A stretch of 64,000 nt of DNA, from positions 62,001-126,000 of the forward strand of contig CALMYG010000160.1 in assembly GCA_937873455.1 (NCBI GenBank). Reading direction: 5' to 3'. The DNA is from an uncultured Verrucomicrobiota bacterium. Its GTDB lineage: Bacteria; Verrucomicrobiota; Kiritimatiellia; CAIVKH01. Shown here piece after piece: positions 5,485 to 12,654 of the stretch. How positions within the stretch are numbered: position 1 is the first letter of the stretch; each line of letters begins with the position of its first letter. Position numbers and translations under genes: made by a program. The notes under the pieces were generated by a model. That model was not told the origin of the DNA. It ran no database searches and worked only from the letters and a program-made list of their open reading frames with translations.

Positions 5485-8394
5485 TCAGAGGACCGGGGTA
5501 ATTCGCGCATCCGCGAGGGCGGCGAGATTTTCCCGTGAACCCATGACCACCACATGGCCGTGTTCGTGGAGGGGTTGCAGCAACGCGCCGTACGCATGAA
5601 AATGCGGCAGTCCGGTGCGTAACACTTCATCCCGGATGCGTTGGCGGTTTGCGTCGCTATCCCCGACAAGATGTCGTCCGAGTGAAAGATAGCCCTTGGC
5701 ATCGGGAAGCAGGTAGGCGTCCAGGTCGCCGATGGCTCCGATGACCGCACGGGTGACTTCCTCATCGTCCAAATGAATGGCGGCGAGGTATTCGGCGGTG
5801 CGATCGTACACCTGGAGCGTTTTGATTAGATTCGGGTCCCGGTAAGAGCTGAAGACGCATTGTCCGGACCGGCTGTCGACCATGCTAAAGCCACCGTAAG
5901 CGCCGCCTTGTACACGGACCTGATCCCAGAGCCAGGCGGAACGCACATACCGGTTGACCACCAAGGCATGGCCGTCCACGCGCCGGTCGCCTTGATGCAG
6001 GTTGATACTTTTACCGACATAGTTGACTTGCGCGGGGATGATCAGGCCTTCCGCCGGTTCGTGCGGGGAGGGGATGAAGGCGCGAACGGCCCGATCGGCG
6101 GAGGCCGCCCCCGGCCAGGTGTTGAGAAACGCGGCAAGCGCCGGCTCGGTTGCGCTTCGTGTGGCGCGCTCGGCGGTTATGTTGATGAGCAGGTTGGACC
6201 GGGCGGTCAGCAAGCGGTGAAGGTCGCGCAACCGGTTACGGACGGCCTCCCAGTCACGGTCAATTTCCGTCAGAAGGGCGCGCAGGCTGAACAAGTAGGA
6301 TACTCCCGTGATGTGTTCGTGAACCCAATCCGCCTCCAGAAAGCGGGCGCGCAGGCGCTGAGCCACGAAGCGATGACCGGCGGGAATCATGTTGGATTCG
6401 ATTTCCGCTTTTTCCTCGGCCACGATTTGTCGGATGCGATCCCGGCGGTCGAGGCGGGCGCCGCCGATGACTTCGGTGAGAATGCGCAGCAAGTCCGGCA
6501 GGCGTTCGTCGACTGCTTTGCCCCGCAAGAAGAGCCAGTTGACCCCGCCGGGGCCATCGGCGCGCGCCGAGGTGAAATAGTCCGGCTCGATACCTCCGGT
6601 GAGCCGCCCGATCCGTTGGGACAACGCAACAAAATCTTCCCGATCCGTTCCGGTCTCCAGCAAGGCGCGAGCCCACACCGGCACAAGGCCAAGCCATGCG
6701 TCGGGCACGACTTCCAGGTTCAACCCCAGGTCAAGGTAAGTGATGCCTTGGGTGAAAAGATCATGAAACAGCACCGGCGTGCCGCTGACGGATGCGGCTT
6801 CAATCGGAATGGGTTGATGCCTGGGTTCCAGGTCCGCGCGGCTCAAGGAAGGTATGCACCGGAGGGCCTCGGGCGTATCGGGAGTGGCTTGGCGCGCTTT
6901 TAGCGCACGGGTGTGCGAGATCGCTTGTTGAAGTTGATCCCCGGTCCAGCGCGCCTTTACGTTGGCCAGTCGCGCGGCTTCCTCATCGTTCAGGCGGTTC
7001 TTTAACTCGGGATCCGGAACAAGCAGCAGTTGCGTCCGGTGGGGATTCTCGATCAGCCAAGCTTGAATCAGGTTTTCAAAATAACGCTCGCCCGCGGCCA
7101 GTCGCGCCCGGATGGCGGCTAGCGGGGCGCTATAGCGCAGCGGCGCCAGAGGGTCGCCGTCGTAGAGCCAGGTTTGCAGCGAGGCCACCATCAAGGAAAG
7201 CCCCCGGGGATACGAGCCGGTGTTTAATTCGCGGAAGTTAAATTCCTCGGTGTTGATCGCGGCTTCGATGGTTTTCGGGTCAATGCCGTTGGCGACAAGA
7301 TCGCGCAAGGTGGACTCGATCAGCGCGACGACACGATCTTCATCCCCGGCGCGGATGCCTTTCATCCCGGTGGAAAAGTAGAGTTCACGAATCTGCGTTT
7401 CCACACCGGCGCCGGCTAGATCCTCGCCCAGGCCGGATTCGATCAAGGCCTTCCGAAGCGGGGAAGCCGGCGAGTCGGTCAGAATGGTGTCGAGCAGGTA
7501 CAAGCCGAGCGTGCGCTCGGGGTCGTCGCCCTCCGGCAACCGCCAGTTCATGGTCAGGTGGAGCAACGGATCCTCCGATCCACCGCAGGGGTAGGGCAGG
7601 GTTACCCGGACCGGAAGCTTGGTGCTTGCCGGTTGAAGGGGAATGGAGGCGTCGATGATCTCGCGGTCGAACGCCCGGAAAGCCTCGTCGATCCGTCGCA
7701 ACCGCTCAACCGGGTCGTCATCGCCGTAAAAGTAAACGCGGGCGTTGGAGGGATGGTAGAATCTCCGGTGAAATGCCCGGAGTTGTTCCCAGGTTAAATC
7801 GGGAATGCAGCGGGGATCGCCGCCATAATCGAGACCGTAGGTGATATCAGGGTAGAGCACGCGTTGGCTGTGCTCGGCCAGTAAGCTGTCGGCCGATGCA
7901 TAGACGCCCTTCATTTCATTAAAGACAACGCCCTTATAGATCAACGGCGCATCCGGGTTTTCAATTTCATAGTGCCAGGCTTCCTGGTCAAAGGTGGCCG
8001 GTTCGAGCAGGGGATGAAGCGCGGCATCCACATAGATGTCGACCAGGTTGTAAAAGTCCTTCAGGTTTTGGCTGGCTACCGGGTAACACGTTTTGTCCGG
8101 ATAGGTAAAAGCATTGAGAAAGGTTTGCAGCGAACCTTTGAGCAGTTCAACAAACGGTTCCTTGACCGGGAACTTTTTGGAGCCGCACAGAACGGAATGC
8201 TCCAGGATGTGCGCGACGCCGGTTGAATCTCCAGGCGGGGTCCGGAAGGTGATGCCGAATACCTTGTTGGGATCATCGTTGATAATCGACAACAACTCCG
8301 CGCCGGTTTTTACATGGCGATACAACCGGGCCTGTAAACGATACTCCGCGACGAACTCATCGCGAATTAACTCAAAACCATGAAGTACGGGCAT
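5485..8394 (-). CDS. M16C metallopeptidase, presequence-protease (PreP/Cym1) type
   Basis: A 969-residue single-chain M16 protease. The inverted zinc motif HILEH is at residues 62-66, followed by the family text SVLCGSKKFPVKEPF. The remaining three domains, including the M16C-associated region, follow to full family length. PreP-type enzymes form a closed chamber and degrade unstructured peptides, such as cleaved signal or targeting peptides, in organelles and in some bacteria. Start ATG 8394 is preceded by AAAGG; the upstream in-frame TTG at 8400 is less likely. No signal peptide is seen, so it is probably cytoplasmic. Divergent from the TolQ-like operon. Confidence 0.92.
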   Translation of the reverse strand: MPVLHGFELIRDEFVAEYRLQARLYRHVKTGAELLSIINDDPNKVFGITFRTPPGDSTGVAHILEHSVLCGSKKFPVKEPFVELLKGSLQTFLNAFTYPDKTCYPVASQNLKDFYNLVDIYVDAALHPLLEPATFDQEAWHYEIENPDAPLIYKGVVFNEMKGVYASADSLLAEHSQRVLYPDITYGLDYGGDPRCIPDLTWEQLRAFHRRFYHPSNARVYFYGDDDPVERLRRIDEAFRAFDREIIDASIPLQPASTKLPVRVTLPYPCGGSEDPLLHLTMNWRLPEGDDPERTLGLYLLDTILTDSPASPLRKALIESGLGEDLAGAGVETQIRELYFSTGMKGIRAGDEDRVVALIESTLRDLVANGIDPKTIEAAINTEEFNFRELNTGSYPRGLSLMVASLQTWLYDGDPLAPLRYSAPLAAIRARLAAGERYFENLIQAWLIENPHRTQLLLVPDPELKNRLNDEEAARLANVKARWTGDQLQQAISHTRALKARQATPDTPEALRCIPSLSRADLEPRHQPIPIEAASVSGTPVLFHDLFTQGITYLDLGLNLEVVPDAWLGLVPVWARALLETGTDREDFVALSQRIGRLTGGIEPDYFTSARADGPGGVNWLFLRGKAVDERLPDLLRILTEVIGGARLDRRDRIRQIVAEEKAEIESNMIPAGHRFVAQRLRARFLEADWVHEHITGVSYLFSLRALLTEIDRDWEAVRNRLRDLHRLLTARSNLLINITAERATRSATEPALAAFLNTWPGAASADRAVRAFIPSPHEPAEGLIIPAQVNYVGKSINLHQGDRRVDGHALVVNRYVRSAWLWDQVRVQGGAYGGFSMVDSRSGQCVFSSYRDPNLIKTLQVYDRTAEYLAAIHLDDEEVTRAVIGAIGDLDAYLLPDAKGYLSLGRHLVGDSDANRQRIRDEVLRTGLPHFHAYGALLQPLHEHGHVVVMGSRENLAALADARITPVL

Positions 8395-8517
8395 GCTCAA
8401 CCTTTCGCGTAAAACGTTTTTGCGCTTTTATGTGCGGATTAAATCTAGCGGACGTTAGCGCAGGATGAGCGGTTTGTCGATAGCGTGAAAAACTCTCCGT
8501 GCATGCAACATAACACG

Positions 8518-8627: not shown

Positions 8628-10139
8628 ATGTCAGACGAAGTCGAAGTTGATGATGCCGAGGCCGTAGTTGAAGTAGGTGAATTGGAGTCCATGCGTAGCG
8701 GGCGTCCCACCACCGACGCCAATGTTTTTTTCCAGTTGCTGTTTGGTTCCGTGGCGACCATCGCAACGGCCATAGGCACATCGGTGTTCAAAAATTCCGA
8801 GATCGGGGGCTTAAAATACCTTTACGATATTATCAACGAACGCGGATGGGTGCAGTACGGCGAATTGTTGATGGCGTTCATGGTGGTAGCCCTCATGATC
8901 CTGAAGTCACGCATCGTCAAGAACCAGCTTAAGGTTGTGGCGTCGAATCCCATCCCGTTGGATATCGACTTGAGCGACGACGAGCAATTGCACAATCTGC
9001 GGGATAGCCTCATCAAGCGCGACGAATTCAGTTGGAGCATCATCCTGAACCGCATCGACCGCGCCATCGCGCTCTGGTTGAGCACCAAGGACGTGGCCCG
9101 TGTGTCGGGGTGGGCGAGCGCCGAATCGGCGCGCGATTCATCGTCATCCGACTCATCCTATTCGCTCTGCCGTGTGCTGATTTGGGCCATTCCGATTCTA
9201 GGCTTTATCGGAACGGTTATGGGGTTGGCCGTTGCCGTGTCCGGTTTCGGCGTGCTCGGCGGTTCGGCGGAAATCGGCGCAATCAAGGAAGCCATCGGCC
9301 AGGTGACGTTGGGCTTGGGCGTGGCGTTTGACACCACCTTGCTCGCCTTGTTCCTTACCGTGCTCCTGATGTTCCCGCTGTCCTTCATTCAGCGAAACGA
9401 AGAAGGGTTGTTCGTGGAACTGGACAATTATCTGGATGATATGTTCCTGGCCCGTCTGCCGTCGCCGGAACAACAGCCGATTGTGATCGAAAACCTGGAG
9501 GACTCCATTGAGGCCGCCTTCCGCCGCTACATTCCCGATCCTGACCGTTATGACGAAGTCTTCACGCGTTCCATTGAAAAGGCTGCAGCCTCCATTGAGG
9601 AACGCTTCGGCAACCTGACCAAGAATTACGAAATTACCATGAAAGAAGTGACCGGCCAGCTTGCCGGCAATCTCGCCGGCGTCAGCGACAGCCTGCGCAA
9701 ATCAATTGTCGCCTCCATGGAAGACCTTCAGAAACAGGATGCGGTCATGCTCGACGCCCGCAAACAGTTGGTTGATGAAGAGAAGAAGCAGGTTGGCGCC
9801 ATGCTGGATGGCGTCGCGCAAACCGCCAAAGGCGTGGTCGGCGAATACCAGAAAACCGCCGAAGTGTTGCGGAGCGCCACCGATGCATCCATGTCCAAGT
9901 CCGTGCAGGCGGCGCAGCAACTGGCCGCAAAGATGGACGAAGTTTCCCAAATGGCCGCGAGCATCAAGGACCTGCTTAAAATCGAACAATCCATTGAGAA
10001 GAGCATGGCCGGGATTTCCGCTTCGGATGATTTCCGAAAGACCCTGGAGGATTTACGCAAGCATATCAACACCACCACGGACTTCTGCTCGCGGTTGAGC
10101 AAGCCGCGGGTGATCACGCTGCGCGAAGAAATCACCTGA
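8628..10139 (+). CDS. TolQ/ExbB/MotA-like proton channel subunit with long coiled-coil tail
   Basis: A 503-residue inner membrane protein. Hydrophobic segments lie near residues 33-52, 76-93, 181-205 and 228-252. The last two form the MotA/TolQ/ExbB core, with PILGFIGTVMGL and the polar-helix text LGVAFDTTLLALFLT. Residues about 290-495 are almost entirely heptad-like charged helix (a coiled coil reaching into the cytoplasm), unlike TolQ or ExbB (about 230 residues) and reminiscent of ZorA in layout only. The N-terminus is acidic. Start supported by AAGGAG. It is followed within 23 and 3 bases by two one-helix proteins that look like its ExbD/TolR-type partners. Predicted proton-driven motor; the cargo is unknown. 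Confidence 0.8.
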   Translation: MSDEVEVDDAEAVVEVGELESMRSGRPTTDANVFFQLLFGSVATIATAIGTSVFKNSEIGGLKYLYDIINERGWVQYGELLMAFMVVALMILKSRIVKNQLKVVASNPIPLDIDLSDDEQLHNLRDSLIKRDEFSWSIILNRIDRAIALWLSTKDVARVSGWASAESARDSSSSDSSYSLCRVLIWAIPILGFIGTVMGLAVAVSGFGVLGGSAEIGAIKEAIGQVTLGLGVAFDTTLLALFLTVLLMFPLSFIQRNEEGLFVELDNYLDDMFLARLPSPEQQPIVIENLEDSIEAAFRRYIPDPDRYDEVFTRSIEKAAASIEERFGNLTKNYEITMKEVTGQLAGNLAGVSDSLRKSIVASMEDLQKQDAVMLDARKQLVDEEKKQVGAMLDGVAQTAKGVVGEYQKTAEVLRSATDASMSKSVQAAQQLAAKMDEVSQMAASIKDLLKIEQSIEKSMAGISASDDFRKTLEDLRKHINTTTDFCSRLSKPRVITLREEIT

Positions 10140-10162
10140 TTCGCCGCATTTAAGGATACGTC

Positions 10163-10663
10163 ATGGGCAAACGCAACCGGGATTCCACCAAGACGGATTT
10201 TTCCTCCTTCATGTGCATCATTCTGATGCTCACCGGATGCTTGGTTACCATCATGGTCGCCAATATCATGATCATTTCGGCCAATCCGGATAACATCGTG
10301 ATCACCTCGGTGGTGGGCCTGACCGATTTTGCCGGCGGCAACGTGCAAAAAGACGCCAATTATATTGATGTCTACCGCGACCGGCTTGAAATCTACTTCG
10401 ATAAAGGCACCCGCCGGGAAGTCGTGACCATCGGGGATCTGGAGATGCGCGGCAATCTGCTCGAGCAATTCATCTCCGAGGTCTACGGCGTGAGGGATAC
10501 CGAGTACATCGTCATGCTGGTACGTCCGCATTCGGCGGAAATCAGCCGCCGCTTGCGCAATGCCATACGCAATCGCGGTATCGATCTGGGCATGGAATTG
10601 TTCGAGGCCGGCAAGGAAGTCATGTTCAAGGACGGCATGGTCGCGGAAAAGGCGGGACGGTAA
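10163..10663 (+). CDS. Small TolR/ExbD-like partner protein A, lacking the channel Asp
   Basis: A 166-residue protein: a basic cytoplasmic N-terminus, one membrane helix (residues about 13-38, SFMCIILMLTGCLVTIMVA) and a soluble domain, probably periplasmic. The layout is that of ExbD/TolR, but position 18, where ExbD has its proton-carrying Asp, is Cys when aligned with the sister protein at 10667. The C-terminal part (HSAEISRRLRNAIRNRGIDLGMELF) has the look of an ExbD-like alpha/beta fold. No peptidoglycan-binding OmpA motif is seen. Sits between the channel gene and its sister in one operon. I do not recognise a named family. Confidence 0.7.
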   Translation: MGKRNRDSTKTDFSSFMCIILMLTGCLVTIMVANIMIISANPDNIVITSVVGLTDFAGGNVQKDANYIDVYRDRLEIYFDKGTRREVVTIGDLEMRGNLLEQFISEVYGVRDTEYIVMLVRPHSAEISRRLRNAIRNRGIDLGMELFEAGKEVMFKDGMVAEKAGR

Positions 10664-10666
10664 CGA

Positions 10667-11281
10667 ATGGCCAAAAAACGCGATAACGGCGTCTCGCTCG
10701 ATTCCTTCCTGGACATCCTCACCTGCCTGCAGGGGGTGTTGATGCTCATCATCATTACCACCGGGATTGACGCCGCGCAAACCAAGGTCATGGTGGCCAC
10801 GCCCATTGAATTGGCCGGCAACGAGCGCCCCATCTATATTGAAGCGCGCAACAATCAATTGTTTACGGTCCCGCTGGAAGATGCCCGCCGGGCGGTGGCC
10901 GCCAAACAACTTGAAGTGGTCCGGGCCCGGCGCGCCGCCGGGGACGCCTCCGATGTCATGGAGGCCATCGGTTCCGCGGATATCGACCTCGGCACCTATG
11001 TGGTTGATTTCACCCGCTTTTTGAGCGGTCAAATCGCCCTTATGCCGAAAGATGACGTGATGGGGTATAGTTTTGAGGTCGCGGAGCGCGAAAATGAAAA
11101 CACCTGGTTCGGCCGCATCGTCGCCGAAATGGACCGGGAAAACGAACGCTTAAATTTCCTCGTCCGGGATGACAGCTTCGAAATCTTCAAACTGGCCCGG
11201 TTTGTGGCCTGGACGAAGAACATCAAAGTCACCTATTCCTTAATCCCCCGGAACGAGCCGCTGATCTTCTCCGCGAATTGA
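10667..11281 (+). CDS. Small TolR/ExbD-like partner protein B, with channel Asp
   Basis: A 204-residue protein with one membrane helix near residues 10-32. The start of this helix, SLDSFLDILTCLQG, lines up with the ExbD segment PFIDVMLVLL, so Asp16 would be the proton-carrying residue. The rest is a mixed alpha/beta soluble domain without OmpA-type peptidoglycan residues and without a recognised family. The start is only three bases after the previous stop, so translation is probably coupled. It is the third and last gene of the module; the next gene has its own promoter-like site. Function inferred only from topology and context. Confidence 0.7.
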   Translation: MAKKRDNGVSLDSFLDILTCLQGVLMLIIITTGIDAAQTKVMVATPIELAGNERPIYIEARNNQLFTVPLEDARRAVAAKQLEVVRARRAAGDASDVMEAIGSADIDLGTYVVDFTRFLSGQIALMPKDDVMGYSFEVAERENENTWFGRIVAEMDRENERLNFLVRDDSFEIFKLARFVAWTKNIKVTYSLIPRNEPLIFSAN

Positions 11282-11448: not shown

Positions 11449-11877
11449 ATGGACATAAATGCCATTCAAACTATCCTGCCGCATCGATATCCCCTCCAAA
11501 TGGTGGATCGGGTTGTCGAATACGATGTCGATCAACAGCGAATTGTCGCGATTAAATGCGTCTCCGCCAACGATCCTTACCTTCAGGGACATTTCCCCGA
11601 ATTCATGTGCATGCCGGGCGTCCTGCAACTGGAGGCCATGGCGCAGGCCGGCGGCGTGTTGATGAGTTCTATTTTCGGCATGAACGGCAAAATCGCCTAT
11701 TTCCTTTCGATCGATAAAGCGAAATTCCGCCGGGTGGTTCGTCCGGGCGATGTCATGCGCATTGAAGTTACCTTCCAGAAGGCCCGGTTACGCGTGTCGC
11801 GCATGAAGGGGGTCATTACCGTGGACGGGGAATTGGCCTCCGAGGCGGAAATGATGTTCACGTACCGCGAGGAATAA
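11449..11877 (+). CDS. fabZ: 3-hydroxyacyl-ACP dehydratase FabZ
   Basis: Dehydrates (3R)-hydroxyacyl-ACP to trans-2-enoyl-ACP in fatty acid synthesis, in competition with LpxA for the same substrate pool. The 142-residue chain has the catalytic His12 in ILPHRYP and the catalytic Glu in GVLQLEAMAQAGG, with the usual GHFP turn (here GHFPEFMCMPG). The start at 11449 is supported by GTGAGGA upstream; a longer open frame from 11278 lacks family similarity. It is a stand-alone FabZ, not fused to LpxC as in some related phyla. lpxA follows after six bases. Confidence 0.95.
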   Translation: MDINAIQTILPHRYPLQMVDRVVEYDVDQQRIVAIKCVSANDPYLQGHFPEFMCMPGVLQLEAMAQAGGVLMSSIFGMNGKIAYFLSIDKAKFRRVVRPGDVMRIEVTFQKARLRVSRMKGVITVDGELASEAEMMFTYREE

Positions 11878-11883
11878 ACGCTC

Positions 11884-12654
11884 ATGCCGGAAATCCATTC
11901 AACCGCGGTGGTGGACCCATCCGCGTCCATCGCGGAAGAAGCGATTATTGGTCCTTATTGCGTGGTCGGTCCGCGCGTCGTCCTGGGCCGCGGCGTCCGC
12001 CTGATCAGCCATGTCGTGGTGGACGGATTGACCACGGTGGGTGATGGCTGCACGTTGTACCCTTTTGTTTCCGTGGGCTTACAAACCCAGGACCTGAAGT
12101 TCAAGGGCGGTTCACCCGGGGTGGTCATTGGCAGCCACACCACCCTCCGTGAATCCGTCACCGTTCATGCCGCAACATACGACGGAGGCGTTACCACGGT
12201 CGGTGACCATTGCCATATCATGGCGTATGCGCATATCGCCCACGATTGCCATGTCGGCGACCGCGTGATCATGGCCAATGCCGCCACCCTGGCCGGCCAT
12301 GTTGTGGTGGAAGAGCAAAGCATCATCGGCGGGCTGTGCGGTGTACATCAGTTCGTGCGTATCGGACGCTTGAGTATAACCGGTGGATGTTCCAAGGTGG
12401 TCAAGGACGTGCCGCCGTTTATGATGGCGGACGGAAATCCATTATCCGTGCATACCATCAATAAAGTGGGACTGGAACGGGCCGGAGTCAGCGAATCCAC
12501 TCAACAAACATTGCGCGATGCGTTCAAATTGCTGTACCGGAAGAATCTGACCACACAGGCCGCGCTGGCGGAGATGGCGGAACTTCCGGCCGGTCCTGAA
12601 TTGGAGCAGCTTATGGCATTTGTTCGTGCCTCCGAGCGGGGAATTACCCGATGA
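11884..12654 (+). CDS. lpxA: UDP-N-acetylglucosamine acyltransferase LpxA
   Basis: First step of lipid A synthesis: moves a 3-hydroxyacyl chain from ACP to UDP-GlcNAc. The 256-residue protein shows the left-handed beta-helix hexapeptide repeats through the first two thirds. The catalytic region HIAHDCHVG holds His117 and His120, the latter matching E. coli His125. A helical C-terminal domain follows. The stop overlaps the secretin start by ATGA (12651-12654), so lipid A and secretion genes share one transcript. Confident assignment; acyl-chain length preference cannot be read here. Confidence 0.96.
   Translation: MPEIHSTAVVDPSASIAEEAIIGPYCVVGPRVVLGRGVRLISHVVVDGLTTVGDGCTLYPFVSVGLQTQDLKFKGGSPGVVIGSHTTLRESVTVHAATYDGGVTTVGDHCHIMAYAHIAHDCHVGDRVIMANAATLAGHVVVEEQSIIGGLCGVHQFVRIGRLSITGGCSKVVKDVPPFMMADGNPLSVHTINKVGLERAGVSESTQQTLRDAFKLLYRKNLTTQAALAEMAELPAGPELEQLMAFVRASERGITR

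Follow-up and report, generated by a model that had tools for sequence, protein, structure and literature searches.

What kind of machine is encoded by three adjoining genes of which the first resembles the channel of ion-driven ring motors and the two others encode small proteins with a single membrane helix each? Such a trio lies in the window, that is, the whole stretch of 64,000 nucleotides analysed here. Its genes, referred to as channel, partner A and partner B, and the genes around them are the following.

8628-10139, + strand: channel subunit, 503 aa; open reading frame (ORF) with PF01618 core, four membrane-type helices and a helical tail
10163-10663, + strand: partner A, 166 aa; ORF with N-terminal membrane helix, then periplasmic head
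10667-11281, + strand: partner B, 204 aa; ORF with N-terminal membrane helix, then periplasmic head
5485-8400, - strand: context, M16-type metallopeptidase gene; divergent ORF, named by sequence likeness
11449-12654, + strand: context, fabZ-like and lpxA-like genes; ORFs, neighbour clusters 13, 9 and 8, named by sequence likeness
from 12651, + strand: context, GspD-like gene; ORF, named by sequence likeness

The ORF calls leave 23 bases between channel and A and 3 bases between A and B, exactly the layout and spacing described in an earlier sequence-only reading of this DNA. This reading had also given the channel gene a promoter-like site of its own, but scanning for the consensus ahead of position 8628 gave no such site, and the promoter and terminator totals of the scan are at shuffle level.

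Is the first gene product indeed the channel of a TolQ/MotA-like motor, as had been proposed? It passes the PF01618 cut-off of 22.9 bits narrowly, with 25.0 bits over residues 167-259 (27.9 bits in the profile search of the genome), and Foldseek comparison of its AlphaFold model with the PDB gives ZorA, ExbB, TolQ and MotA as best matches, mostly with probability 1.0 albeit with E values of only about 0.01. The model, in which the core scores above the tail (mean pLDDT 73), has membrane-type helices at about residues 33-56, 74-97, 183-207 and 226-252 and, after the core, about 200 helical residues (287-491), so that both the PF01618-type core and the long tail of the earlier description stand. 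The protein carries the motifs LGFIGTVxGL and AFDTTLLAL, a collar, IENLEDSIEAAFRRYIPDPDRY, at residues 287-308, and a conserved C-terminal end, LSKPRVITLREE. GFIGTV, AFDTT, most of the collar, the terminal KPRVITL and D235 in the last membrane helix are invariant across its relatives. The tail had been thought to act as a cytoplasmic lever, for which no support was obtained. The tail module is also borne by a separate one-helix protein, and it occurs in 46 genomes of the class, namely the 44 with the trio and two incomplete ones. The tail with its end may form a cytoplasmic docking arm whose partner would be common to the one-helix tail protein, and suggests that such a docking partner exists in the cytoplasm. 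On contig C38 of the window genome (L135 / L022) the one-helix tail protein is encoded divergently from an FGE-sulfatase-type gene, a pair that is kept in relatives.

With its four-helix channel topology, its long cytoplasmic helical tail and its best fold match the trio resembles ZorA-ZorB, and it could be imagined that it constitutes a Zorya-like anti-phage system in which the channel tail signals into the cytoplasm. Weak ZorA matches are found as well (25.6 bits in PADLOC and 29.6 of 100 bits in NCBIfam), stemming partly from the coiled coil. However, this score is far under the curated level, A and B do not match any Pfam family in the profile search and therefore lack an OmpA-type anchor such as that of ZorB, no effectors (ZorC, ZorD or ZorE) were found beside the trio, and its neighbours are envelope genes. 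Moreover, the trio is inherited across whole families, whereas defence islands are patchy. Zorya was rejected on these grounds and is, in our view, very improbable, and the suggestion of defence work is left unsupported; the ZorA score and the missing anchor also bear out the statement that the trio is not a ZorAB, MotAB or TolQR-Pal system. With MotA-MotB the trio shares the channel fold and a one-helix partner with an aspartate, but it has no peptidoglycan anchor, no flagellar context and two unlike partners. With ExbB-ExbD and TolQ-TolR it has in common the PF01618 core, a one-helix partner, an SFLD/PFID-type aspartate in B and a periplasmic head; unlike these systems it has four membrane helices, the tail of about 200 residues, partners that are undetectable as ExbD, one of them devoid of the aspartate, and an operon without a TonB or TolA gene. 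A canonical TolQRAB-like set is found on contig C27 of the window genome, apart from the trio.

What are the two partners? Each starts with one hydrophobic membrane helix, as had been noted before; that of B contains an aspartate (D16, in SFLDILTCL), and that of A has no aspartate (SSFMCIILML) and C18 at the site. Comparison of their profiles shows A and B to be homologous over helix and head (hhalign 98.2%, E 5e-14) and aligns C18 of A with D16 of B. By its motif, SFLDI, D16 corresponds to the PFIDV-type aspartate of ExbD, which is invariant in the ordinary ExbD proteins of the window genome (8/8). A plain ExbD identity was nonetheless rejected for both partners: PF02472 does not match A or B at any listed score, the eight PF02472 matches in the window genome do not include them, hhalign detects nothing between them and the ExbD proteins of the same genome, and no useful PDB sequence match was found. 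The only bridge to ExbD/TolR is the B protein of a sister trio, which reaches 18.9 bits with PF02472, below the cut-off of 25.4. As the profile comparison with the genome's ExbD was negative and only this sister B touches PF02472, the term ExbD-like describes the anatomy of A and B, and membership in ExbD is not claimed. The sequence-only reading was therefore right in setting the pair apart from ordinary ExbD and in calling it mixed. B is modelled with a mean pLDDT of 87.6; its best PDB fold match (E 0.28) is not credible, and the trio points to a head fold that has no counterpart in the PDB.

Conservation shows that the trio is far beyond chance, since 35 further loci encode a channel with 38-80% identity to that of the window, and the order channel, A, B is kept in all 36 of the 37 named loci that extend far enough to show the three genes. 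These named relatives are metagenome-assembled genomes labelled Kiritimatiellae/Kiritimatiellia, other Verrucomicrobiota or Lentisphaerae, which makes Kiritimatiellia (Verrucomicrobiota) the most likely class of the window. Within the order, the channel is present in 8/8 genomes; partner B occurs in 44 of the 288 genomes of the class, distributed over ten families, and many genomes of the class are without the trio altogether. The small genes are thus constant neighbours of the channel throughout the class, as the earlier reading had expected of a true module, and the trio appears as a widespread envelope machine in Kiritimatiellia to which no function has been assigned so far. A description of the trio in Kiritimatiellia or planctomycetes was not found in the open-licence literature, an absence that carries little weight.

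Do the neighbouring genes reveal its task? The order fabZ-like, lpxA-like, GspD-like after the trio recurs in several relatives, in which the upstream side of the trio can bear a divergent gene for a SurA/PpiC-like lipoprotein. The claim that the next operon is separate has in its favour the stretch of over 150 bp ahead of the fabZ-like gene but is weakened by the many relatives in which fabZ, lpxA, gspD, gspE and gspF follow on the same strand. These genes would be consistent with the trio being an energiser for them that supports type II secretion or the building of the outer membrane. However, in the rumen/f26 lineage the trio adjoins different genes, a glycosyltransferase gene and a YkgJ-like gene, and its absence from so many genomes of the class argues against such a role too, to which we give little credence. 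A further neighbour is the gene for a secreted protein, about 660 aa long, whose N-terminal part is an NHL-type beta-propeller; it lies between channel and A in about half of the loci, within the operon in many families and unlinked elsewhere. The propeller is found in 35 genomes of the class, all of them among the 44 with B (hypergeometric P about 5e-37, with shared ancestry not corrected for). In the window genome its only relative lies on contig C2 (L096 / L144), convergent with a second, very similar B gene.

The most conspicuous feature of the trio, overlooked in the sequence-only reading, is the aspartate missing from A and kept in B. Among 88 trios of the phylum, the aspartate is lost from A and kept in B in 47, kept in both in 39, kept in A and lost from B in one (L129) and lost from both in one. 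Most of the 47 were scored by pattern search and the remainder read directly; the 39 leave out L184 and L186, which are of a distant kind, and L081 was scored as having the aspartate in A based on a TDIMT motif read beside L077. The residue in place of the aspartate of A is C, A, S, P or N, and the swap is found even between near-related partner types (MIPFLDILC versus SLFPFLSILAC). On the tree of the channel core (87 channels) at least five changes of aspartate state are needed, four of which are forced by well-supported branches. The trio without either aspartate (L094:9923-11400) is probably decaying or misassembled, as its channel ORF is split. The asymmetry, A losing and B keeping its aspartate, is itself the finding; a rule of at least one aspartate per pair would be weak statistics, because B almost never loses it. 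Could another acid take over? A has an acidic residue, D12, which precedes the lost site by six positions; this residue or D235 of the channel could carry ions instead. The idea that an acid in the last membrane helix of the channel makes up for the missing aspartate of A was rejected, as D or E is found there in nearly all trios whether A lost or kept its aspartate.

The closest precedent for two partners is AglRQS of Myxococcus gliding, which like the trio combines one MotA/TolQ-type channel with two different ExbD/TolR-type partners. In AglRQS both AglQ and AglS have the aspartate, and whether they form a heterodimer is stated to be unknown (PMC9389320). The trio has two different partner genes beside the channel in all 36 usable loci, but only B carries the aspartate, and it also differs in its partner heads, which are unlike and without Pfam match, and in the long tail of its channel. 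The earlier assertion that such systems usually have one partner type does not hold generally: AglRQS has two (PMC9389320), the ordinary ExbB sets on contigs C71 and C121 of the window genome have two ExbD genes, and sets of one channel and two unlike partners are common throughout the phylum.

Do A and B act as a pair? Five ORFs encode helix-free, mostly secreted proteins in which A-type and B-type heads are joined, in both orders.

L222:5726-6547: A-B head fusion, family f26
L212:4802-6022: A-B head fusion, family f26
L208:5307-8099: A-B-A-B head fusion
L209:162-2063: A-B-A-B head fusion, with gaps
L213:4933-6021: B-A head fusion, family f17

Proteins that are found fused in either order are usually partners, and the fused heads argue that A and B would pair in the trio as well. 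Alternatively, the trio may be an ordinary divergent ExbBD/TolQR-type set without a hetero-axle, in which B homodimers work inside the ring while A, as an accessory outside it, takes the position of TonB or TolA. These two are one-helix proteins that attach to the outside of the ring (PMC12905483). An accessory could do without the aspartate, as A does, and additional unlinked copies of B exist in genomes of the class. However, A is homologous to B over helix and head, whereas TonB and TolA are not ExbD-like; A keeps the aspartate in sister trios; and the head fusions speak against an accessory role. We therefore regard this arrangement as unlikely. Heads of the B type occur in further secreted settings: one stands alone in the window genome (L207), and two follow a GH53 domain (glycosyl hydrolase family 53).

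L211:4993-6591: GH53 with C-terminal B-type head, by Pfam and head profile
L210:5714-7342: GH53 with C-terminal B-type head, by likeness

In addition, the fusion gene of L212 adjoins a GH66 gene, and together the GH53 and GH66 associations may hint at glycans.

How could such a motor work? We think it reasonably likely that the trio is a motor of the 5:2 family, of the ExbBD/TolQR/MotAB/ZorAB kind, with a hetero-axle of A and B, one ion site and a task in the envelope, possibly linked to glycans. The ring would consist of five channel subunits and the axle of one A and one B, and as only B carries a protonatable aspartate, the axle would have one ion site instead of two. As expected by family membership, ions would pass the axle aspartate within the ring, the A/B pair would shift against the ring, and the periplasmic A/B head would be driven. 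It would most likely act on partners that are secreted or belong to the envelope, the beta-propeller protein being the first candidate. The output of the motor is thus probably periplasmic, via the heads; the 5:1:1 stoichiometry, the type of ion, the force output, the target and the function are all features that we infer. According to the published model, the two axle aspartates of 5:2 motors exchange protons alternately, and each ion accounts for 36 degrees (PMC9389320). With a single ion site this alternating cycle cannot run as drawn. A bolder version of the hetero-axle reading, possible but tentative, is a naturally asymmetric motor with an obligate A/B axle, a single ion site and no two-site turnstile cycle; that its heads also occur in free secreted A-B fusions and, for B, on a secreted GH53 enzyme would hint at a coupling of the motor to glycan handling at the envelope. 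If true, another motion would be needed, such as a pulling stroke or a turn driven by five ions. An A protein that lost its aspartate several times beside a B protein that keeps it provides a natural test of the number of ion sites that a motor needs, and the trio can thereby test how ring motors turn ion flow into movement. It is a well-conserved variant with an unusual, testable axle and no new kind of machine.

Other trios of Verrucomicrobiota (SLFSFQDII + SLELLLDTMCN and SLFPFLSIL + SLDSLMDALTN types) likewise have one channel and two unlike partners, and in the latter type A is without the aspartate, as in the trio described here; they differ in their heads, which have long coiled coils, and in having other channel tails or none. 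A phylum-wide range of one channel with two unlike partners, most of them without family name, is represented by L115-L134 and L147-L186. At L183, L184 and L186 a more distant channel type is followed by partner pairs with the motif FSLAFLDCICCGFGA and the aspartate in both.
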